Source: Bacteroidaceae bacterium
Lineage (GTDB): Bacteria > Bacteroidota > Bacteroidia > Bacteroidales > Bacteroidaceae
NCBI GenBank assembly: GCA_017536765.1
Contig: JAFXGV010000075.1
Location: 1-48,842, forward strand
Length of the DNA: 48,842 nucleotides
Reading direction: 5' to 3'
Positions 1,764 through 28,634 of this stretch are shown here, piece after piece (within the stretch, counting starts at the first letter, position 1; every line of letters starts with the position of its first letter). A program made the translations under genes and the position numbers. The notes beneath the pieces were generated by a model. The model did not search any database. It saw only the letters and a program-made list of their open reading frames with translations, and was not told the DNA's origin.

Positions 1764-2438
1764 CTATTTTAACTTATACCTCATCCACACCGTTTCACCT
1801 ATCTGCTGAACACTGCAAAGATGCAACTGTGTTGCAGGGCGACCTGCATCTTGGATACCGTCGAACACCGCTGCCTGACCGGCACGGCCGTCAATGCCCG
1901 GCGCTACCATAAAGCTGACTTCATCGAGCAACCCTGCCGCAAGGAACGCACCATTGATGTGTCCGCCACCGGTGACCGCGAGCCGCTCTACGCCGAACTC
2001 CGCACGCAACAACTCCATTGCACGCGGCAGGTCAATACCATCCTTACCCGTTGCAATCCATGATATACCCTGCTCCGTCAATCGGTCGTGATAACTCTTG
2101 GGGCAGCGTTCATCGGTAACTACAAGCAGCGCCTGGCCGTCGAATTCATTCTCGCCCCACTGCAATGAGCCATGCGTGTCAATGCCCACGCAGTAGGCCG
2201 GCGCCTTGCGGGCCACGTAAAAAGCCTCGGTGCCAATTGGTGAATCGCAGAGAGGCACAAAAGGCTCAGGCTGGGCGTAATGCATCTGCATCGTAACACG
2301 CCCCATAAGCATAGAGGGACAGGAGAGCGCCTCGAGGGCCTCGTAATATTCGTTACCACCCTCAATCTGCTCTGTCATGTCGCAATCTATGCGGCCATCG
2401 ACAGAGGCTATCATGTGACATATAATATAAGGTCTCAT
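1764..2438 (-). CDS. RibD C-terminal-type (dihydrofolate reductase-like) reductase
   Basis: A 224-residue protein of the RibD-C/DHFR-like fold, the NADPH-dependent reductases of riboflavin synthesis and related stand-alone enzymes. It opens with MRPYIICHMIASVDGRI, where the ASVDGRI motif is typical of the substrate-binding start, and has LAVTGGGHINGAFL near residue 155, the NADPH-binding glycine loop. There is no deaminase domain, so it is not a full RibD and its substrate is unknown. Its ATG lies 2 bp after the MGMT stop, so it is the last gene of a three-gene leftward operon. Confidence 0.8.
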   Translation of the reverse strand: MRPYIICHMIASVDGRIDCDMTEQIEGGNEYYEALEALSCPSMLMGRVTMQMHYAQPEPFVPLCDSPIGTEAFYVARKAPAYCVGIDTHGSLQWGENEFDGQALLVVTDERCPKSYHDRLTEQGISWIATGKDGIDLPRAMELLRAEFGVERLAVTGGGHINGAFLAAGLLDEVSFMVAPGIDGRAGQAAVFDGIQDAGRPATQLHLCSVQQIGETVWMRYKLK

Positions 2439-2440
2439 AA

Positions 2441-2755
2441 TTATATTTTGTTTATTATCTTTTCATTGTCAATCAGTTGTCGTTTACGCTCCAACTGTTC
2501 ACCCTCACGCATGCCATTGTAACCGCCGAGTGAACCATCGGCAGCCACCACACGATGACAAGGGACCTCGGGAGCAAAAGGGTTACGTTTGAGCGCCTGC
2601 CCCACAGCCTGCGCACTGCCGCACCCGACGCGGCGCGCAAGTTCTCCGTATGTGATTGTTGTACCCGACGGCACCCGTAGCAGTTCAAGATACACCTTGC
2701 GCTGGAACGGGGTTATCAAGGTTGACTCAATGACTTTCTGGCGTATATCATCCAT
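2441..2755 (-). CDS. MGMT-type methylated-DNA repair protein (short form)
   Basis: A 104-residue protein covering only the helix-turn-helix and active-site domain of O6-alkylguanine-DNA alkyltransferases. The acceptor motif PCHRVV is intact with Cys66, so unlike alkyltransferase-like (ATL) proteins it could accept an alkyl group. The N-terminal RNase-H-like domain of Ogt/Ada is missing, which is common in short MGMT homologues. TYGELARRVG (residues 35-44) is the DNA-binding helix region. It sits 4 bp after the M50-like gene and 2 bp before the RibD-like gene. Confidence 0.85.
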   Translation of the reverse strand: MDDIRQKVIESTLITPFQRKVYLELLRVPSGTTITYGELARRVGCGSAQAVGQALKRNPFAPEVPCHRVVAADGSLGGYNGMREGEQLERKRQLIDNEKIINKI

Positions 2756-2759
2756 AATA

Positions 2760-3278
2760 CTAAGCTACTTTTTTGAAAGAGGCTGTATAGGCAGGATAAA
2801 GGACCTTCCAGACAAGCAGCAGATTCACCACACCGACAACGCCGGCAATCAGCGAAACTACACCCGCGGGAACCAACAATGCAATGCCATTCATGTCACC
2901 GCCACCTACCCAGCGGTAGAAGACTCCAAGATAAAGCGGGTCGAGCAACAGCATGATGAGCGAAGTATACCACGCACACGCACGCAGAACAGAAGACGAT
3001 ATGCGACACAGCTGATGCACAAAAAGAACCATAAGCCAACCGACTGCGAGTGTTGCTAATGGTCCGGCAAGACAAAAGATACCCATTTGTAAACTGCTCA
3101 TTCTTTCGGCAAAGACATCAATCTGCACACCCAGTCCCATAAAATTGATTTGCCTGAACGCCCCCTGTGCAAGAGCCACAACAAGATGCGCCCCTTCGTG
3201 AATTATATAATACATCAGCACAGCAACCGCAAGGCCGATATATTGACGATACTTCTTGTTCATAATATACTTTTTCAT
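2760..3278 (-). CDS. M50-like integral membrane metalloprotease
   Basis: About 172 residues with four or five hydrophobic segments. The first contains HEGAH (HExxH, zinc ligands and catalytic Glu) inside MYYIIHEGAHLVVAL, as in site-2-type proteases. A later FCLAGPLATLAVG resembles the NxxPG/GP region of that superfamily, but no clear LDG motif is seen. It could be a membrane-anchoring M50-like protein of unknown substrate. The reading frame extends to a TTG at 3296. The ATG at 3278 is chosen, with another ATG at 3263. First gene of the operon with the MGMT and RibD-like genes. Confidence 0.65.
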   Translation of the reverse strand: MKKYIMNKKYRQYIGLAVAVLMYYIIHEGAHLVVALAQGAFRQINFMGLGVQIDVFAERMSSLQMGIFCLAGPLATLAVGWLMVLFVHQLCRISSSVLRACAWYTSLIMLLLDPLYLGVFYRWVGGGDMNGIALLVPAGVVSLIAGVVGVVNLLLVWKVLYPAYTASFKKVA

Positions 3279-17592: not shown

Positions 17593-19480
<1,888 letters not shown>

Positions 19481-19485
19481 ACATA

Positions 19486-19516
19486 CAAAGATAGTGCAAG
19501 CCGAGAGGAATACAAA
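19486..19516 (-). promoter_or_regulatory. Promoter of pyrG
   Basis: On the minus strand TTTG (19513-19516), 19 bases, then TATCTTTG (19486-19493). Both boxes match the Bacteroidota consensus exactly. The start would be near 19479, giving a leader of about 280 bases. Confidence 0.8.
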
Positions 19517-19714: not shown

Positions 19715-19822
19715 AAAATTGCAGGTATTCCCGAGGCGCAGCCTATCTTCACCGAAGGTAAAGATAGTGCAAGCCGGCAATAATAAGCGAGCAAAGGGTA
19801 ATGCTACGAGGGCTGCCCTATT

Positions 19823-20665
19823 TTACACAGTTTCGTTAGTAACTCGTTTAATAATCATTTCCTTATACCTTTCATCCAGCTCAACACCCAAACCAATTCT
19901 ACGCAAATTCTCAGCAGCAATAAGCGTCGTACCGCTACCCAAAAACGGGTCTAATACAACATCGCCTTCGTTTGTTGTCATTTTAATAATTCTTTCTATC
20001 ATTGGCGTAGGAAAGACACAGGGATGTTCCGAAATACCCAGCTTATTTTTTGTCATATTATTAACACGGTCGAAATACCAAAAGTCACTTTCCGGGACAT
20101 CATAATTCCAGGTATCCGTTGGATTTCTACCAGAGCCTCCTACCAAACGCTTATCATTTTTTGTAATATACGGTATTCTTATATCGTCTAAGTTGAATTT
20201 GTAACTGTTTATATCTTTAACAAACCATAGTATCGACTCCCATCTTCCACTTAAACGATTTGTGCAATTTTGCATATTATTAAAATGCCATATAATGCTA
20301 TTACGAAGGAAATAACCATATTTCTTGAAGATGAAATATGCTATCGCATCCAACGGAACAATTTCTTTTGTTTTTCCTTTTGGAATAGGAGATACATTTA
20401 AAAGAAAACTGCCATTAGGTGCAAGAATCCTATATGCTTCTTTTGCAACATTATCTATCAAACTTTCCCACTCGCAGAACTCGCGGTTGTCGTCATATAT
20501 TCCATAAGATTTATCAAGGTTATACGGTGGTGATGTTACTATAGTATTTACTATACCGTCTGGCATATTTGCCATAGTTTCAACACAATCGGCGATAGTA
20601 AAGAAAGAGTTCTTTACAGAAAACACATTTTTTTTATTTTCCTTAAAATAGATTTGTTTCTTCAT
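19823..20665 (-). CDS. DNA methyltransferase, beta-class (second of a pair)
   Basis: A 280-residue site-specific DNA methyltransferase. The catalytic motif TSPPY (44-48) comes before the AdoMet motif DPFLGSGTT (239-246 region), the order of the beta class (N6-adenine or N4-cytosine). The segment between them holds the target recognition region. Its 5' end overlaps the upstream methyltransferase by 23 bp, so the two are co-translated. Base composition is AT-rich compared with pyrG. With the nuclease and controller upstream it forms a Type II-like restriction-modification locus. The sequence it methylates cannot be told from here. Confidence 0.9.
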   Translation of the reverse strand: MKKQIYFKENKKNVFSVKNSFFTIADCVETMANMPDGIVNTIVTSPPYNLDKSYGIYDDNREFCEWESLIDNVAKEAYRILAPNGSFLLNVSPIPKGKTKEIVPLDAIAYFIFKKYGYFLRNSIIWHFNNMQNCTNRLSGRWESILWFVKDINSYKFNLDDIRIPYITKNDKRLVGGSGRNPTDTWNYDVPESDFWYFDRVNNMTKNKLGISEHPCVFPTPMIERIIKMTTNEGDVVLDPFLGSGTTLIAAENLRRIGLGVELDERYKEMIIKRVTNETV

Positions 20666-21422
20666 TTTTCAGTCTTTCTATCGCAATTTTTATATAATCC
20701 TTTTCCAATTCATACCCCACAAATTCTCTTCCCAATCTTTTGGCAACTACAGCAGTTGTTCCACTTCCCATAAAAGGGTCAAGTATTAAATCGCCCGGGT
20801 TAGAACCAACCTTGATGATTCTCTCAACCAATTCTTCGGGATACTGGGCAGGATGCTCAGTTCGTTCAAGAGAATTCCCACTTACCATTGAAATTCGCCA
20901 CACATCTGTAGGATTTTTTAATTGGCTCTTGTATCTATCGGGGCGATAATTTAATGCAGGTATTTTAACATCATCAAGGTTAAACGTGTAATTGTCTTTT
21001 TGTTTTGTAAAAAAGAACACATATTCATACCTTGAACAAAAACGTTTGTTTGTTGAACCGCCCCAATCGAAATTCCAAATAATTATATTTTTTAAATACA
21101 TATCTGAAAAATAGTCCAATATCCAAAAAGGCGGGGTTATTACTCCTTTGTCATACCTATTTTTTATGTTAAACCACACTTGACCATCATCCTTTAATAC
21201 TCGCTTTATTTCTTCAATAACATTTGCAAGCATTGTTCTGTAAACCGATTCTTCTAAATTATCGGTATATTTTACCCCTTTGGAGCGGATTTGCCTACCA
21301 CCCTCCCAATTATGACCGTACTGAATATCTATATTATATGGAGGAGATGTAACCATAAGAGACACCGACTTATCCGGTATCTCTTTCATGCTTTCGCTAC
21401 TATGATTGAATATTTTATTCAT
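20643..21422 (-). CDS. DNA methyltransferase, beta-class (first of a pair)
   Basis: A 259-residue methyltransferase with TSPPYN (25-30) and DPFMGSGTT (about 215-223), again beta order. It is clearly related to its neighbour (shared KFNLDD/FNLDDVKIP, NPTD and EHP segments) but differs in the middle, which suggests two strands of one asymmetric site. The frame is open to 21449. The ATG at 21422 is chosen because the TATCTTTG box at 21447-21454 puts transcription start near 21440, downstream of the longer start. It has its own promoter, separate from the nuclease transcript. Confidence 0.88.
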   Translation of the reverse strand: MNKIFNHSSESMKEIPDKSVSLMVTSPPYNIDIQYGHNWEGGRQIRSKGVKYTDNLEESVYRTMLANVIEEIKRVLKDDGQVWFNIKNRYDKGVITPPFWILDYFSDMYLKNIIIWNFDWGGSTNKRFCSRYEYVFFFTKQKDNYTFNLDDVKIPALNYRPDRYKSQLKNPTDVWRISMVSGNSLERTEHPAQYPEELVERIIKVGSNPGDLILDPFMGSGTTAVVAKRLGREFVGYELEKDYIKIAIERLKNEETNLF

Positions 21423-21431
21423 ACAACATTG

Positions 21432-21447
21432 GCATACTACAGTATGC
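21432..21447. promoter_or_regulatory. Palindromic operator at the methyltransferase promoter
   Basis: GCATACT-AC-AGTATGC, 7-bp perfect arms with a 2-base spacer. It covers the last base of the -7 box and the predicted start point. The same palindrome (5 of 7 bp per arm) overlaps the controller start at 24192-24207. A binding site for the XRE controller is inferred. Confidence 0.7.
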
Positions 21448-21454
21448 AAAGATA
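21447..21454 (-). promoter_or_regulatory. -7 box of the methyltransferase promoter
   Basis: TATCTTTG on the minus strand, a perfect consensus, 25 bp before the ATG at 21422. No clear -33 box, which would fit a promoter under regulator control. Confidence 0.65.
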
Positions 21455-21497
21455 GTCTTTTTTATTTAGGATTTAGAATATATAAGTAATTATTGAA

Positions 21498-22298
21498 TTA
21501 TTTTTTCACATTCTCTATAATGCTCAAATATTCTGAAAATGTTATCATTTCTAAAAGAGGTGGATACACCTTTCCTGTTTCTTGGTGCGATTCCATATCA
21601 CCTTCTCGCTGTTTGCGCTTGTGTAAATCACCCACATTATCATAAAACTCATATACATTGTGAGAGGACATTGCAAAAATTCCTTTGATATGAAAAGAAT
21701 CGAACCACCAAACAAAATGAACGGGTATTCCTTGTTGCTCCAGTCTATCCATACACTCTCTCTGACCAAGCATTTTACTTCCGGTATCCAATGTCAACGA
21801 TGCTTCATAATCGTAACGGGTAGATTCGTAAGGAAAAGTGTTTTTTATCAGTTTATTTGCAGATAAAAAAGGAGCTTCTATGTATTTTAGTTCGAAATAG
21901 GCTAAGACCTCCCCTCTCTGTGAACACACTTCCAAATCGGGGAAAGGGTAAGCCTTCTTTTTTACAACAAGCCCTTTTGTTGCCAAATACATTGTAAGGG
22001 CTTTCTCGTACCATTGACCTAATTGTATATCAAGCCCCTTTCTATACTTATTCCGCGGACTCAAATAATATTTGCTATACTCTGAATATGCACTCTTTAA
22101 CTCAGGTATTTGCTCTTTAAGTTCCTTTACAGCAGGGGGTGTTTTTGAATATCTATTTGCATAAAACATTTTTTTATAGCATTCTATATGAAACTCGTTA
22201 AATTCAAGCGAACGACGAAATTTAGTTTCAATATCGTCTGTATGAGTATTACAGAATGCTACCAAATCTTGATATAAAAATATATCTTGTTCCATCAT
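21498..22298 (-). CDS. Putative PD-(D/E)XK restriction endonuclease
   Basis: A 266-residue protein with the core residues of a PD-(D/E)XK nuclease in order: Glu98 (WYEKAL), Pro120-Asp121 (FPDLEV) and Glu136-Leu-Lys138 (AYFELKY). The length and position beside two DNA methyltransferases and a controller support a Type II-like restriction enzyme. The ATG overlaps the stop of the TGT-like gene by 4 bp (ATGA), so translation is coupled. The methyltransferase pair starts 75 bp downstream with its own promoter. The recognition site is unknown. No close family was recognised. Confidence 0.75.
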   Translation of the reverse strand: MMEQDIFLYQDLVAFCNTHTDDIETKFRRSLEFNEFHIECYKKMFYANRYSKTPPAVKELKEQIPELKSAYSEYSKYYLSPRNKYRKGLDIQLGQWYEKALTMYLATKGLVVKKKAYPFPDLEVCSQRGEVLAYFELKYIEAPFLSANKLIKNTFPYESTRYDYEASLTLDTGSKMLGQRECMDRLEQQGIPVHFVWWFDSFHIKGIFAMSSHNVYEFYDNVGDLHKRKQREGDMESHQETGKVYPPLLEMITFSEYLSIIENVKK

Positions 22299-23563
22299 AT
22301 TTTTAATGCTTTTTTTATCGCAAGATAATTAGTATTTAAATTTTTGTCTGGTGTATTTATCAAAAGTTCTATGTAGTTATCTGTATTTGCTTTTATAAAT
22401 TTTATAAGAATATCATATTGAAGAATTGCCTCAAGAAAAATTATTATCTCTGCAAAATAAAAATCCTCTTTGTTGGGCGACGTTAAAAGTTCCTGAATTT
22501 CCTTAATTGAATATCCACAATTAAACCTATAGTCACCATCACTTATATCTTTAATTCTTACATATTCAAGACAATTCTTCTTATTTATAAAATTAAATTT
22601 GTCATCTAATAAAGGTACTAAAATTTTAGCCTTATGCAATCCTCCATCGGACGAACGTCTCCAAGCCGAATGACAATCTGAAGAATTAGCTCCTGCATAA
22701 ACAAGAAAAGGTAAAATATATATATTACCCGCACCTAATACGTGAATATGGCGCGACGTCTTTTCTCTCACCCTTTTAACAAGATTATAGCATATATAGG
22801 CCGACTTAAGGTTTTTAGTAAATCCACGAGGAATTCCCCAAAAATCATTATCGAGAACTCTGGTATTCGCAATACCACCAAGCGCAAATCCACTAAACTC
22901 AGTTCCTATGGTGTTTTCCAAATCAATAATACGCTCTAAATAAGCGATGAAGGATTCATAATCGAAACCGTGCAATGGAGCTAATACAGAATGCTTATAA
23001 CCGTTTAACTTAATTTCTTGCAAGGCTTTAGACAACAACTCAAAATTTATATCATCATCATTGGCTAATTCTTGCCATTTATACATAAATTTTGGATTGG
23101 ATTTCTCTGAAGCTTTGTAAGTATACTTCATTGCCAAATCAAGAGATACAGATAATTCAAACTTATGTTGCTCTGCGAAATCCAGGAAAAACTTTATTTT
23201 CTTATAAATATCATCGTGAGAATTATCTTTTTCCAAGAGGTCTCTTAAAAAATTACCACAACCATTATCTAAAATAAAGCCATTGATAGAAATCTTTGAA
23301 TTACTACTTTGAAATTTGGAAGATGTATATCTTTTTGCCTTAAAATACTCTCTACAAAAATTAACAAAATCATTAGCATCGTCAAATTTATCAATTTGCT
23401 TAATCAACGGAAGATCAAAACAAGTTTTTGCACTACCTGTAAGATAATAGTAGTTTAGCAGAATTCCAATGTTATCCAACTCGAATTTCTCGAGATAATC
23501 GTATAAGCGACTAACGTTTGTTCCGCCACCGCCGAGATTGTTTGTTATGTAGAATTTATGCAT
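22295..23563 (-). CDS. tRNA-guanine transglycosylase (TGT/DpdA) superfamily protein
   Basis: A 422-residue protein that follows the order of TGT motifs along its length. GILLNYYYLTG (33-43) stands for the IILGNTYHL part. FILDNGCGNF (96-105, Asp99) stands for ILTDSGGFQ. SVSLDLAMKYT (138-148, Asp142) stands for MAFDEC. APLHG (195-199, His198) lies at the QGG position. FALGGIA (226-232) stands for YAIGGL. HVLGAGN then GANSSDCHSAWRR (291-303, Asp296) stands for GVDMFDCVLPTR with its nucleophile. The CxCxxC zinc cluster is reduced to single cysteines (C331, C348). A base-exchange role on DNA, as for DpdA, or on tRNA is inferred. It lies in the restriction operon, 10 bp after the 138-aa gene. Confidence 0.72.
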   Translation of the reverse strand: MHKFYITNNLGGGGTNVSRLYDYLEKFELDNIGILLNYYYLTGSAKTCFDLPLIKQIDKFDDANDFVNFCREYFKAKRYTSSKFQSSNSKISINGFILDNGCGNFLRDLLEKDNSHDDIYKKIKFFLDFAEQHKFELSVSLDLAMKYTYKASEKSNPKFMYKWQELANDDDINFELLSKALQEIKLNGYKHSVLAPLHGFDYESFIAYLERIIDLENTIGTEFSGFALGGIANTRVLDNDFWGIPRGFTKNLKSAYICYNLVKRVREKTSRHIHVLGAGNIYILPFLVYAGANSSDCHSAWRRSSDGGLHKAKILVPLLDDKFNFINKKNCLEYVRIKDISDGDYRFNCGYSIKEIQELLTSPNKEDFYFAEIIIFLEAILQYDILIKFIKANTDNYIELLINTPDKNLNTNYLAIKKALKI

Positions 23564-23573
23564 AAGTTTTATA

Positions 23574-23990
23574 TTAAAGTTCGCTACTTAAGCAAATGGC
23601 AAGTTGATTAAAAGATATGGAATTGTCAATAATATATCGGTTTATATCAAGACTGGGATTATTAAGCAAAGCCAGTCTTAACTCTGTTCCTTCTATTGAC
23701 TTTAGGATATTATTTTCATCTCTGAATAAGAAAAACAAAGGCCTGTCTAAATTTGAATATTGAGTGGACAATAATGCTCTAATCGACACTGCAAAATCAT
23801 CGGAATTCCAATATTCACTTGACAACAATCCGTTTTCAATCCTACAAAAAACTATATATGAATGTATATTACGAGTCCTATCAAGCAGTATTTTGTTAGG
23901 TATATATCCTTTTGCAAAATTAGCATCTTCTATACGGAACCGATATTGTTTACACAATGAAAGACATTCTATATTTATATAATCACTCAT
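23574..23990 (-). CDS. Unknown 138-residue protein of the restriction island
   Basis: The product is not recognised. It has no signal peptide or membrane segment, and it looks like a mixed alpha/beta cytoplasmic protein (SYIVFCRI, RPLFFLFRDENN strands). It starts inside the last codons of the controller gene (8-bp overlap) and ends 10 bp before the TGT-like gene, so all three must be made from one transcript. AT-rich like the rest of the island. Possible roles are a partner of the TGT-like enzyme or a modifier of the controller, but the sequence gives no direct clue. Confidence 0.65.
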   Translation of the reverse strand: MSDYINIECLSLCKQYRFRIEDANFAKGYIPNKILLDRTRNIHSYIVFCRIENGLLSSEYWNSDDFAVSIRALLSTQYSNLDRPLFFLFRDENNILKSIEGTELRLALLNNPSLDINRYIIDNSISFNQLAICLSSEL

Positions 23991-24195
23991 GAACCAATTC
24001 TATTATATCGACATTCAAAGCTTTGGCAATCTTTTCTAAACTAACAACCGTAACATTCTTTTCACATCGTTCAATCATACCTATATATGTTCTATGAAGC
24101 CCCGACTCAGCTGCAAGTTTCTCTTGCGATAAGCCTCGCTCTTCTCTCAGTCTTTTTATTTTATAAGCTATAAGTTTTGAAATATCGCTTTGCAT
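23983..24195 (-). CDS. XRE-family controller (C-protein-like) regulator
   Basis: A 70-residue single helix-turn-helix protein (IKRLREERGLSQEKLAAESG...TYIGMIERCEKN), the size and type of restriction-modification controller proteins. These dimerise and bind palindromic C boxes. It is first in the leftward operon. Its start codon lies inside a palindrome that is repeated at the methyltransferase promoter, so autoregulation and control of the methyltransferases are likely. The transcript would have a leader of only about 12 bases. Confidence 0.88.
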   Translation of the reverse strand: MQSDISKLIAYKIKRLREERGLSQEKLAAESGLHRTYIGMIERCEKNVTVVSLEKIAKALNVDIIELVHE

Positions 24196-24207
24196 ACTTT
24201 AGTATTT
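24192..24207. promoter_or_regulatory. Palindromic operator at the controller gene start
   Basis: GCATACT-TT-AGTATTT: the same arms as the operator at 21432-21447 with two mismatches in one arm. It spans the predicted transcription start and the ATG of the controller. A further AGTATAC half-site lies at 24251-24259, next to the -33 box. Confidence 0.6.
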
Positions 24208-24213
24208 TACTTG

Positions 24214-24244
24214 CAAAAGTACAATTAACCGTTATAGGTATCAA
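24214..24244 (-). promoter_or_regulatory. Promoter of the controller-TGT-nuclease operon
   Basis: On the minus strand TTG (24242-24244), 20 bases, then TACTTTTG (24214-24221). It matches the -33/-7 consensus, with the start near 24207. Confidence 0.7.
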
Positions 24245-24315
24245 CACACCATAGTATACAATAAATAAAGATACCTAAATTTTCAATAATTATAAATATC
24301 ACTCCCCAAACAAAC

Positions 24316-24368: not shown

Positions 24369-27300
24369 TCACTTAACCACGGCCTTTTGACCGTCAATCA
24401 CATAGATACCCGCAGGCAGGTAGAATGTGTGGCAACCATCCACCAACGCCTTGATCACGGTGCGGCCCACTATATCATACACCACAACATCTTGGAGCGA
24501 AGCGGTAGAAACCATCACACCACCGTCAACAGCCGACAGCTTCACAGGATTCCTATCCACAACATTTACAATACCCACAGTGCCGAGAGTATTCTCCATA
24601 CCCTTCTTCTGATATACACGTACCCAGTCGAACAATGTTTCGTAGGTATGTGTGACATCGGCATTTGCAGCCCACGAGCCGTTGCCCACACTCTGGTTCA
24701 GTATAATGTGGAAATGGTCATCGAAAGGCCACTGGCCCTTGTTAAGAGCATCGCTCGACGATGATTTATAGTACTGCGCCACCTGTTTGCCATCAACGAA
24801 CCAAACGAGCGATGTTTCGTCCCACTCGAGTGTAAACACGTGGTAACGGTCAAGCGGAGTATATTCGTTGAAGCTCGACTGCGGGTTGCCGGTATTTCCC
24901 AAATTGTATGTCCAGTTTGAGTGAACGGTATGATAGGCCCTTTCCTGCGCATCTATCACCTCCCAGATATCAATCTCGCCATCGTTGGGCCAACCACCCG
25001 ACTGGTCCTCGGGCATCATCCAGAATGCAGGGAAGTTACCTTTCCAACCACTTGTCTTTATGCGGCCCTCGATGCGGCCATACGTAAAGCCGAACTTGCC
25101 ACGGCTCCATATACCGCCTGTAATCATAGGCACGTTATCTACCGACGTGTCGGGGTTGGGTATTGCGCGGGTAACCAACTTGCCATCCTCAATGTACACA
25201 ACCTCCTCGCGGTCGCTCAACCAACGGTTCCAAGTGGCTCCCTGTCGCATACAACGTGACCACCATTGGCTTGCAGGCTGCGTGCCATCGGCTGCGTTGA
25301 ACTCATCGCTGAACACAAGCTGCCACTCGCTGTCGGCGCTGTTTGCAAACTCGGCGATAATCTCAACCTCACCATCTACATACTCGGCAGGCAGCGTCAT
25401 AACATCGGCCGATGCCGCAATCACCTCCTCGCTCCACTGCTTGTTGCCATTTACATACTGCTCGCCCTTTATGTTGTGGCCGTGGCGCACAACAACCTCG
25501 CTTGCTTCGAAGCCCGGAGCTCCGGGCATCAGTTGGAACTGCAATTCAGCCATTGGAGCCAGTGTCATTGGCAGCGCCGAATTATTGGGGGCGATGATGC
25601 TACCGTTGAGAGTATTGAGGTTCAATGGGCAGTTGCCCGTAACTATATTTATAAGGAAATCGACCACCACACCATTGTTGGCAACAATTGCAGTCGAACC
25701 GGCAGGAGATACATCATTTACATCGGCTTTCACACGGGCACGATATACACCGGCAGGCACATTATCGGGGAGATTGTAAAGCGGCAGCACCTTGCCGGCG
25801 GTGGCAACTTCGTTGCCATTGCTATCCTTGCCATTGTATTGAGTGAAGGCCACTAACTCGCTCGAATACGAGGGGAGCCCGTCGCTGTTGAGCAACGCTG
25901 TGAAACGGCCGTCGTTGTTCCAGTCGATATACAAATAGTAGTGCAGGCCGTCGCGGTTGTCATCTACCGAGAGGGTGAGCGAGCGGGGCAATGACAGCAC
26001 CACGGGGGCATCGGTTGCATCCATATAGACCTTGCTACCTGCCACCTCAATGCCATAATCATTGAGCCCTACCGCCAACGAAAGCACTCCGTTGTACTCC
26101 AGGCCTGCAACAGCCTCCTTATCGAATGAAACAGCATATCCGTCAGCAGCCGCATCCTCCTGTGCCTTGGCAAAGAGAGCCTCTATTTGCACATCGCCAT
26201 CCACATATTCGGCAGGCAGCACAAGCACACCATCCTTGCACATATATGCGGGGATTAAATCGTCGCTATACTGCTTTACACCAAACTTTTCGGCATCGCC
26301 CGTGAGATTATGTCCGTGGCGCACCTTCACAACATCGAGCACATAGCCTACAGCAGGCACCACCTTCAATTCAAGCGGCTTGCCAAATGGCACCGTGGCA
26401 GGCAGAGCAGAGCCATCGGCGGCAAGCAGGGCGCCATTCTCGGCAACCACCGAAAGAGCACCATTCGCGCTGTGTACATTTATGCACACATCGCATATGG
26501 CGCCGCCATTCTTTATTATTCCGTTGCCATCCTCGGTGCGGCCGGCGGGGTCAATGGATGCCCAATCGACCTTGTAACGCATAAGATAGAAACCGTTGGC
26601 AAGGTCGGCAGGCAAGGTGAACGAGGGCGGGTTGAGCACATCGGCATTGGTCACACGCACACCTGTGCTGTTGTATCCCACACCCGAGTTCAATGTATGC
26701 TCGGCATACGAGAAGGCCATAATATCGCTATCGGCGGCATATGTACCATCCTCGTTAAGCACCGCATCGAAAGCACCATCCTGTCCGCGGTCGAGATAAA
26801 CAAAACCATTCATCCAGTTACCTGTAAAGCCAAACACGGGCGTGAGCGATTCGCCTGCCATTGCAGTGAAAGCGGCGCCATCTACCTTACTGTATATTTT
26901 AAGCGGTGTGGGCATATCTATCTTCTGGTTGCCATCGGCCGAGCCATTGAGCGACACGCTGTTAAGACGGCGCGAACCGTGTGTATAGTTCATTGTCTTG
27001 TCGAACACCACGGGATAGTAATCCACATCCTCTGTCACATTCTTGGGGATAAGTTTCATACAATCGATATCACCCATCCAATCCCGGTTATAAAGGCGCA
27101 CTACGTTGTTGCCCTTGTTCAGAGTGACATTGACATCCACCGTGCCCACTGCGCTCCAGCTACCACCGTTTGTGGTAACCTCCACGGGAGTGCCATCGTT
27201 CACGCTCACCAGCATCTTGCGGCTCTCGCCCGAGATGAATGAGAAGCGGAGCGTATATTCACCACCCTCTTTGCTATATACATTGCGCCATTGCAGGTCG

Positions 27301-28634
27301 TTTTCCTCATTGCCACCAAGCCAGCCCACTGCAACGCCTCCCGAGCAAGAGGATTTGTCGAGATACATAGCGGTGCCTGCCGCTTCGTGGTTCTCCAATT
27401 CCTGATAACAGGTGAGCCAAGCCGTTTCGGCCTCATAGAGAGAGCGTTCGAGGCGCTCCTCGGCAGTCAATTTATATATGCGTGTGCCGTGTGCGGGCAC
27501 TGTAACGGCCAATGCCCCGCTGAACAGGCCCCTATCCTTCTTTTCGAAGAGGTCGCGCACAGCCACATCGCCCGCAAGGTCGAGGTCGGAGAAAGCAATG
27601 CTCATCTGCTGCTCGGTATCGGTGGGGTTATAGAAGGCCACAACACGTTTGGTGCCGTTGAGCACCTCAACATCCTTCACAAGCACATAAGCACCATTCT
27701 CTCTTTTCACCACATAGGCCTGCAGCCCAAGAACATCCTGGTTCACGGCAATAAGTTCTTTGTTCTGCATCAATGCAAGGGCGTCACCCTTTATATCGTT
27801 GAGGTCGCAACCGATGAGCAGCGGCGAGCTCATAACACACCACATACCAAAATGGGTTTTATCCTCCTCGTCAGTGAGGCCGCGGCCCACCTCAAGCATA
27901 TCCATATCGTTGTAACGGCCGTTGCCTGCGTATGCCGACAGATAGAGGCTCTGGTCAATGATACTCTTCACCGAAGCCCAGCCAAGATAGATATCCTCGG
28001 TTGTGCGCCAGGAATTGGCAATATCGCAAGCCCAGGTACCGGGGAAAGCCCAACGACATAAGTTCCAGGTAATATCGGTGCGGCCCGTGCTCTTTATAGC
28101 CTCATAAATCTCCTTGTAGCGCGCCTCGACATCAAGGTCGAGCCCCTCGGAGTTATTTCCGGCATCGGCGCCGCAATAATCTATCTTAATAAAATCGAAA
28201 TCAAGTTCATTGAAATAGAGATTCATATCCTGCTCATCGTGACCGTAGAGGCCCACTCCTACACCTATTTCATCGCCGCCCCAATACGAAGCACAAGTGT
28301 TACGCCCCGCATCGGAGTAGATGCCCGCCTTAAGCCCACTGCTGTGGATATAATCCACAAGCGGACGCAAGCCGTTAGGGAAGCGTGTGGGATGAATGAG
28401 CAGTTTGCCATTCTCATCGCGACCGCCAAAGAAGCCATCGTCTATGTTTATGTGATTGTAGCCACAATCGTAGAAACCGAGCTTCACCATAGCATCGGCC
28501 TGCGCCTTAATGATGGATTCGCTAATCTCGAAGCCGTATGCATTCCACGAGCTCCACCCCATCAACGGGGGATTCACGGCAACAGCCACCATCGTTGCCG
28601 CACACAGCATTACGCCAAGTATAAGTTTTTTCAT
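24369..28634 (-). CDS. Secreted GH27-GH16 bifunctional glycoside hydrolase
   Basis: A 1421-residue exported protein with a signal peptide of about 19 residues. Residues 20-395 are a GH27 (alpha-galactosidase-type) barrel: NPPLMGWSSWNAYG, nucleophile Asp152 in FIKIDYC, acid/base Asp214 in SWRTTED. About 396-530 resembles a CBM35-like beta domain. Two related modules follow (about 535-822 and 833-1096), each ending in a VVVRHGHN...LPAEYVDG segment. Residues 1101-1343 are a GH16 domain with GEIDIWEV (Glu1220, Asp1222, Glu1225). The last 60 or so residues resemble a type IX sorting tail (VVVYDIVGR...LPAGIYVIDGQKAVVK). It should cut alpha-galactosyl and beta-glucan or galactan links of one polymer. 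The substrate is not shown by sequence. Confidence 0.88.
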   Translation of the reverse strand: MKKLILGVMLCAATMVAVAVNPPLMGWSSWNAYGFEISESIIKAQADAMVKLGFYDCGYNHINIDDGFFGGRDENGKLLIHPTRFPNGLRPLVDYIHSSGLKAGIYSDAGRNTCASYWGGDEIGVGVGLYGHDEQDMNLYFNELDFDFIKIDYCGADAGNNSEGLDLDVEARYKEIYEAIKSTGRTDITWNLCRWAFPGTWACDIANSWRTTEDIYLGWASVKSIIDQSLYLSAYAGNGRYNDMDMLEVGRGLTDEEDKTHFGMWCVMSSPLLIGCDLNDIKGDALALMQNKELIAVNQDVLGLQAYVVKRENGAYVLVKDVEVLNGTKRVVAFYNPTDTEQQMSIAFSDLDLAGDVAVRDLFEKKDRGLFSGALAVTVPAHGTRIYKLTAEERLERSLYEAETAWLTCYQELENHEAAGTAMYLDKSSCSGGVAVGWLGGNEENDLQWRNVYSKEGGEYTLRFSFISGESRKMLVSVNDGTPVEVTTNGGSWSAVGTVDVNVTLNKGNNVVRLYNRDWMGDIDCMKLIPKNVTEDVDYYPVVFDKTMNYTHGSRRLNSVSLNGSADGNQKIDMPTPLKIYSKVDGAAFTAMAGESLTPVFGFTGNWMNGFVYLDRGQDGAFDAVLNEDGTYAADSDIMAFSYAEHTLNSGVGYNSTGVRVTNADVLNPPSFTLPADLANGFYLMRYKVDWASIDPAGRTEDGNGIIKNGGAICDVCINVHSANGALSVVAENGALLAADGSALPATVPFGKPLELKVVPAVGYVLDVVKVRHGHNLTGDAEKFGVKQYSDDLIPAYMCKDGVLVLPAEYVDGDVQIEALFAKAQEDAAADGYAVSFDKEAVAGLEYNGVLSLAVGLNDYGIEVAGSKVYMDATDAPVVLSLPRSLTLSVDDNRDGLHYYLYIDWNNDGRFTALLNSDGLPSYSSELVAFTQYNGKDSNGNEVATAGKVLPLYNLPDNVPAGVYRARVKADVNDVSPAGSTAIVANNGVVVDFLINIVTGNCPLNLNTLNGSIIAPNNSALPMTLAPMAELQFQLMPGAPGFEASEVVVRHGHNIKGEQYVNGNKQWSEEVIAASADVMTLPAEYVDGEVEIIAEFANSADSEWQLVFSDEFNAADGTQPASQWWSRCMRQGATWNRWLSDREEVVYIEDGKLVTRAIPNPDTSVDNVPMITGGIWSRGKFGFTYGRIEGRIKTSGWKGNFPAFWMMPEDQSGGWPNDGEIDIWEVIDAQERAYHTVHSNWTYNLGNTGNPQSSFNEYTPLDRYHVFTLEWDETSLVWFVDGKQVAQYYKSSSSDALNKGQWPFDDHFHIILNQSVGNGSWAANADVTHTYETLFDWVRVYQKKGMENTLGTVGIVNVVDRNPVKLSAVDGGVMVSTASLQDVVVYDIVGRTVIKALVDGCHTFYLPAGIYVIDGQKAVVK

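Follow-up and report, generated by a model that had tools for sequence, protein, structure and literature searches.

A relative of tRNA-guanine transglycosylases conserved in the company of a PD-(D/E)XK nuclease and DNA methyltransferases in Bacteroidota and archaea

The stretch of DNA analysed here (the window) comprises positions 1 to 48,842 of contig JAFXGV010000075.1 from a Bacteroidaceae bacterium (assembly GCA_017536765.1) and contains a compact six-gene restriction-modification (R-M) locus, in which a 422-amino-acid protein of the tRNA-guanine transglycosylase (TGT) superfamily is encoded next to a predicted PD-(D/E)XK nuclease. Its membership in the superfamily is near certain and the case for a conserved association with R-M genes is strong; a putative role on the restriction side is somewhat favoured. 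TGT swaps guanine for 7-deazaguanines in tRNA; Dpd clusters and phages use the same chemistry to put 7-deazaguanine into DNA. A sequence-only reading of the window had noted a protein with TGT-order motifs inside a Type II R-M operon and had taken it for a TGT- or DpdA-like base-exchange enzyme. The observation was confirmed and the interpretation supported in part. Absence of the TGT barrel, loss of the catalytic aspartate and a lack of co-occurrence in related loci were all looked for, and none was found.

The model of the 422-residue protein has the TGT barrel fold (VIA-align), and profile alignment agreed with this assignment, as hhalign (97.7%) paired D99, D142, G229-G230 and D296 with canonical TGT residues, covering the Asp nucleophile, the substrate-binding Asp and the GG positions. 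The catalytic motifs picked out from the sequence are retained, including the nucleophile position D296, and D99, D142 and D296 are invariant in 28 of 28 relatives. The identity surfaced only through relatives and profiles, not through scans with the single sequence: nothing significant was returned for the 422-residue protein by Pfam (best match CbiK, 0.11), NCBIfam, PADLOC or PHROG, nor by phmmer against the PDB (best 0.084). The solved “DNA-guanine transglycosylase” 7ui4 matched the profile weakly in sequence (E 0.012) and was not among the 50 fold matches listed for the model. The R-M proteins form a clade separated from the tRNA and archaeal TGTs with a support of 100/99.

Phage 9g DpdA has the LDSG, His, LGG and Asp positions in common with the window protein, and H198, at a position where canonical TGT carries Gln, aligns with a histidine of this DpdA; a conserved His at position 196 is a feature of DpdA. 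We do not take His198 as diagnostic of DpdA, since an archaeal TGT from Loki has the histidine, too; DpdA2, according to PMC6884629, is without the conserved His. Loss of the CxCxxC zinc site, which is missing in 12 of the 28 relatives including the window protein and present in the other 16, was likewise dropped as a mark of inactivity: three canonical TGTs of Bacteroidota are also without it, so the site is not strictly defining for TGT. The searches also brought up a numerous family of 456-amino-acid TGT-like proteins (P0240, P0248, P0109, P0111 and relatives) sharing a glycine-rich N-terminal motif and the aspartates; one member is named as from a Clostridia metagenome-assembled genome (MAG), and no relative of this family was found in the viral_contigs, phages or plasmids collections.

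The six genes would be transcribed from the minus strand in the order helix-turn-helix (HTH) protein, 138-amino-acid protein, TGT-like protein, nuclease, methyltransferase 1 (MT1) and methyltransferase 2 (MT2):

23983..24195, minus strand: HTH protein (Cro/C1-type), 70 amino acids; Pfam HTH_3 3.4e-16, PADLOC Control_protein 1.8e-23
23574..23990, minus strand: 138-amino-acid protein, its gene overlapping the HTH gene; 29 invariant columns in 5 sequences
22295..23563, minus strand: TGT-superfamily protein, 422 amino acids
23267-23269 (D99), 23138-23140 (D142), 22970-22972 (H198), 22874-22879 (G229-G230) and 22676-22678 (D296): codons in the TGT-like gene
21498..22298, minus strand: PD-(D/E)XK nuclease, 266 amino acids, its gene overlapping the TGT-like gene by 4 bp
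21936-21938 (D121) and 21885-21893 (E136-K138): codons in the nuclease gene
20643..21449, minus strand: MT1, DNA methyltransferase of the N6_N4 type with a TSPPY motif; PF01555 1.8e-58
19823..20665, minus strand: MT2, DNA methyltransferase of the N6_N4 type with a TSPPY motif; PF01555 3.9e-53
19777..24301, no strand assigned: the whole cassette, delimited by blastn of the flanks and the empty-site sequence

Gene coordinates and family matches bear out the placement in an R-M operon and the 4-bp overlap of the TGT-like and nuclease genes. By Pfam, HTH_3 and the two N6_N4_Mtase domains were clear among the six proteins, and the TGT-like protein, the nuclease and the 138-residue protein had no significant match. 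The 70-residue protein is, as judged from these matches, like the controller proteins of R-M systems. The 138-residue protein has a conserved LDxTRNIHSY stretch, matched nothing in any family library scanned and occurs in Bacteroidales loci only.

Scanning a species-genome collection yielded 10 loci with a relative of the TGT-like protein (L002-L011). They belong to four Bacteroidales, one of them the named isolate Bacteroides cellulosilyticus DSM 14838 (L005), which has the whole gene set, and to one Chitinophaga MAG and MAGs of Lokiarchaeota, Aenigmatarchaeota, Woesearchaeota, Diapherotrites and Freyarchaeota. The nuclease was found in nine of the 10; in L008, a 3,057-bp contig, the TGT gene runs off the contig end, so the nuclease side is not readable. 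Relatives of MT2 were likewise present in 9/10 loci and those of MT1 (≥64% identity) in 8/10. No methyltransferase adjoins the TGT-nuclease pair of L011; another contig of that genome carries, 765 bases from the contig end, a methyltransferase pair matching the one of Loki (46% and 61%). A conserved co-occurrence, which the sequence-only reading had proposed to look for in other genomes, was seen for nuclease and MT2. The 138-residue protein has relatives in just 4/10 loci (L002-L005), and the order of the TGT and nuclease genes varies. HTH relatives were found in L002, L003 and L005, with a weak match (0.005) in L008.

Wherever the pair could be read, the window included, TGT and nuclease genes lie on the same strand (10/10), and in 8 of these 10 pairs they abut or overlap, the exceptions being L011 (187 bp apart) and the Loki locus L006 (3,835 bp apart). 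In the window and L002 the TGT gene precedes the nuclease gene; in L003, L004, L005, L007, L009, L010 and L011 it follows. The methyltransferases are opposite in strand to the TGT gene in five (L006-L010) of the nine loci holding them. When pairwise distances were compared between TGT, nuclease and MT2 over 10 genomes, L011 being represented by the MT2 from its other contig, the correlations were 0.80-0.87, and at most 3 of 2000 permutations reach the observed value. By these sequence comparisons, TGT, nuclease and methyltransferase are shown to be co-inherited across bacteria and archaea. A locus having the nuclease but no TGT was looked for and not reached. Linking of listed clusters by genome joined at least 21 of 120 nuclease clusters with a TGT cluster, using 68 of 112 TGT matches; it misses true pairs (L004 has both genes yet stayed unlinked, and the window's own nuclease, a 100% match, is absent from the cluster list), so non-matches are uninformative. 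Two peculiarities concern the Asgard loci. In L006 (4998-6515) and L016 (765-2351), a 505- or 528-residue protein with two N6_N4_Mtase stretches replaces MT1, and L006 also encodes (1880-3118, minus strand) a second, very divergent TGT homologue with the catalytic aspartates kept, which adjoins the nuclease gene in divergent orientation.

The remaining parts have the makeup of a Type II R-M system as predicted from sequence, namely a nuclease with the PD-(D/E)XK pattern and two PF01555 methyltransferases. In the nuclease, G-x3-E, PD and E-x-K are invariant in 27/27 sequences, showing the pattern of an intact PD-(D/E)XK active site, and its modelled fold is closest to structure-selective resolvases, near RecU/Hjc. 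TSPPY is invariant in all 20 MT1 and MT2 rows. The SPPY motif is a sign of N4-cytosine methylation, although among the PDB relatives of MT1, N4-cytosine enzymes and adenine enzymes score alike; the mark set by MT1 and MT2 is probably N4-methylcytosine. Since a pair of methyltransferases would be enough to protect an asymmetric site, the TGT-like protein is not obviously needed for protection.

The locus was further delimited by comparison with related genomes. In G772, of the same genus, the left flank (matching the window as far as 19776) and the right flank (matching it from 24302 onward) are separated by about 124 bases, forming an empty site, so that 19777-24301 constitutes a cassette containing all six genes. 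In G716, another genome of this genus, whose flanks are ~95-96% identical, the slot corresponding to window 19777-24301 (L046, G716:C12, 2948-7823, between pyrG and a glycoside hydrolase gene) is filled by a YhcG/DUF1016 nuclease gene together with M and S genes of Type I-like character (N6_Mtase, Methylase_S); HsdR was not seen among the open reading frames listed there. A third genome, G724, matched at pyrG only. Defence genes thus seem to be exchanged at this site. The left edge of the cassette (window 19249-19512 and 19760-19785) has repeats of 48-86 nt as well as two copies of AAGATAGTGCAAGCCG (2 found, 0.03 expected), and similar copies stand at the empty and the refilled site. Window positions 24369-28634 encode a 1421-residue protein composed of an alpha-galactosidase part (Melibiase_2), a Glyco_hydro_16 part and a GEVED domain.

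Among mobile elements, the TGT-like protein had no relative in the viral_contigs, phages and plasmids collections, and the nuclease had none in the two searched for it, plasmids and viral_contigs; all matches of MT2 on plasmids and phages were below 60% identity (1853/1853 and 1371/1371 records), the best listed at ~39%. The nuclease is also rare in the genome sets. It was found in 2 of 395 genomes (its own and one where the match is a 41-residue frame interrupted by stops, which we do not count), 2 of 399 (its own and G663, the host of L004), 1 of 393 (its own) and 1 of 327 (again only the centre genome), and a further set gave 0 of 299, an empty answer that is uninformative alone.

The sequence-only reading had noted that the locus has no dpdB, dpdC or preQ0 synthesis gene, which agrees with our Pfam results for the six proteins, among which none was recognised. 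We looked at the supply of 7-deazaguanine precursors in the 11 carrier genomes (G663 and G791, which gave identical matches, taken as one), most of which are MAGs of untold completeness, making single absences soft. Full-length QueC (E ≤ 4e-61) was present in four, the hosts of L002, L004, L005 and L011; in the other seven, including the window's genome, it was not found, with no match or weak partial ones (E 6.9e-6 or worse). Vut_1, the one transporter searched for, occurs in four as well: the hosts of L004, L005 and L008 and the genome of the window. Together, 6/11 genomes have QueC or Vut_1 and five (hosts of L003, L006, L007, L009 and L010) neither of them. Because QueC is present in only 4/11 genomes and both are missing from 5/11, the system does not track precursor synthesis or supply. 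A separate canonical TGT (E ≤ 1e-70) exists in 9/11, the window's genome included; the hosts from Aenigmatarchaeota and Diapherotrites gave no TGT match besides the R-M protein.

We tentatively lean, at somewhat less than an even chance, towards an exchangeable six-gene R-M cassette whose restriction half consists of a DNA-directed TGT-fold enzyme and the PD-(D/E)XK nuclease. A restriction-side role is the simplest reading because the TGT gene goes with the nuclease gene and the catalytic residues are fully conserved, and we counted in its favour the correlated distances of TGT, nuclease and MT2, the opposite strand of the methyltransferases in five loci, the lack of tracking with 7-deazaguanine supply, the replacement of the cassette by M and S genes of Type I-like character in G716 and the nuclease fold nearest to structure-selective resolvases. 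The methyltransferases would mark the target, probably as N4-methylcytosine, so that host DNA is protected; at an unmarked target the TGT-like protein would flip out guanine and, like TGT acting on tRNA, attack C1' via D296; the product would be a covalent adduct, an exchanged base or an abasic site, where the nuclease would then cut. Expression would be timed by the HTH protein and perhaps also by the 138-residue protein. Restriction by attack on a base has a precedent in R.PabI, which removes adenine unless it is methylated (PMC4357717; PMC10273834). The narrower proposal of a new class of restriction enzyme, a restriction transglycosylase made of two proteins and shared by Bacteroidota, DPANN and Asgard archaea, its TGT subunit attacking or excising guanine of the unmethylated target through an aspartyl-DNA intermediate, its partner nuclease cutting the altered site and methylation blocking the base attack, is possible rather than probable. 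Against the restriction-side reading stand the arrangement of L006 and nuclease relatives in entries of Kordia, Myroides, Polaribacter and Flavisolibacter, at ~50% identity, for which no locus was listed by the TGT scan.

A DpdA-like modification remains the serious rival, though on balance we consider it rather unlikely. Here, guanine of host DNA would be exchanged for a salvaged or synthesised 7-deazaguanine or another base as a second mark, and the nuclease would cut unmarked DNA. The intact catalytic set, the positions shared with 9g DpdA and the presence of QueC or Vut_1 in 6/11 carriers (in the window's own, Vut_1) fit this idea, as does the modification of DNA by DpdA described in PMC6884629; the top viral fold match was a protein of Vibrio phage nt-1, a phage which the same paper says encodes DpdA2, which may or may not be this protein. 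However, neither precursor nor dpdB/dpdC genes were recognised at the locus, both QueC and Vut_1 were missing from 5/11 carriers, the pair of methyltransferases might suffice for protection, and the TGT gene is coupled to the nuclease rather than the methyltransferases. For the 7-deazapurine proposal of the sequence-only reading, no precursor gene was recognised at the locus and QueC was found in few carriers, an argument weakened by MAG incompleteness; its putative alternative, an enzyme licensing or redirecting the nuclease, would fit the gene coupling better. If the TGT fold were only a specificity subunit, finding the target, flipping a base to read methylation and recruiting the nuclease with no chemistry of its own, the tight coupling and a nuclease resembling resolvases more than sequence-specific enzymes would be expected, but D99, D142 and D296 are conserved beyond what recognition alone seems to need, and we regard this as unlikely. 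Still less probable is an aid to counter-defence, in which the enzyme would make phage DNA carrying 7-deazaguanine open to cutting by the nuclease: phages with such DNA escape restriction (PMC6884629), but nothing in the data points to modified substrates of this kind. Moreover, base exchange by TGT is regarded as essentially irreversible in the direction opposite to 7-deazaguanine removal. An ordinary tRNA-modifying TGT hitchhiking in the cassette would share the fold and explain the sole TGT match in the Aenigmatarchaeota and Diapherotrites carriers; in view of the separate canonical enzyme in most carriers, its own included, the well-supported split of the clade and the constant company of the nuclease, it is very improbable.

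Compared with known systems, the locus resembles Dpd in placing a TGT-superfamily enzyme in a DNA-defence setting, and differs in its gene content, with two methyltransferases and a compact six-gene R-M layout in place of recognisable dpdB, dpdC or preQ0 genes. A controller-like HTH protein, a PD-(D/E)XK nuclease and two SPPY amino-methyltransferases are shared with Type II R-M systems, whereas the conserved TGT-type subunit, its gene coupled to that of the nuclease, is extra. With R.PabI the favoured restriction-side reading, if true, would share an attack on the glycosidic bond blocked by methylation; R.PabI has the HALFPIPE fold and targets adenine, whereas here guanine is the expected target, the nuclease is a separate partner and the models match the TGT and PD-(D/E)XK folds and not HALFPIPE. 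Recruitment of a TGT homologue to defence is also described for BREX-related capture (BRC) systems; these possess PglZ, DUF6079, a STAND NTPase, DUF4007 and HerA/FtsK (PMC12839542), none of which Pfam recognised among the six proteins; PADLOC likewise detected no PglZ, BrxC-like ATPase or HerA/FtsK, and Pfam no BrxC-like ATPase. Canonical bacterial and archaeal TGTs have the same fold and catalytic residues; the protein described here differs by its separate clade, His198 for Gln and its R-M context. Searches of the open-licence literature listed no paper describing a TGT homologue within a Type II R-M locus. By term search, transglycosylase, glycosylase, deazaguanine and archaeosine do not occur in an archaeal R-M survey (PMC10609329); a 2025 R-M review (PMC12707154) mentions TGT just to illustrate the PUA fold, and DpdA as a phage defence.

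A compact R-M system with a catalytically complete TGT beside a nuclease would be either a much simpler DNA base-exchange system or a restriction system whose attack on the glycosidic bond uses a fold other than that of PabI and unrelated to it. On either reading, unmethylated sites should show a base change, an adduct or a nick that depends on D296, and as Bacteroides cellulosilyticus DSM 14838 carries the whole set, the question is testable. The pairing of a TGT relative with a DNA-cutting enzyme, seen from gut Bacteroides to Lokiarchaeota and DPANN archaea, hints at a new way of attacking or marking foreign DNA.
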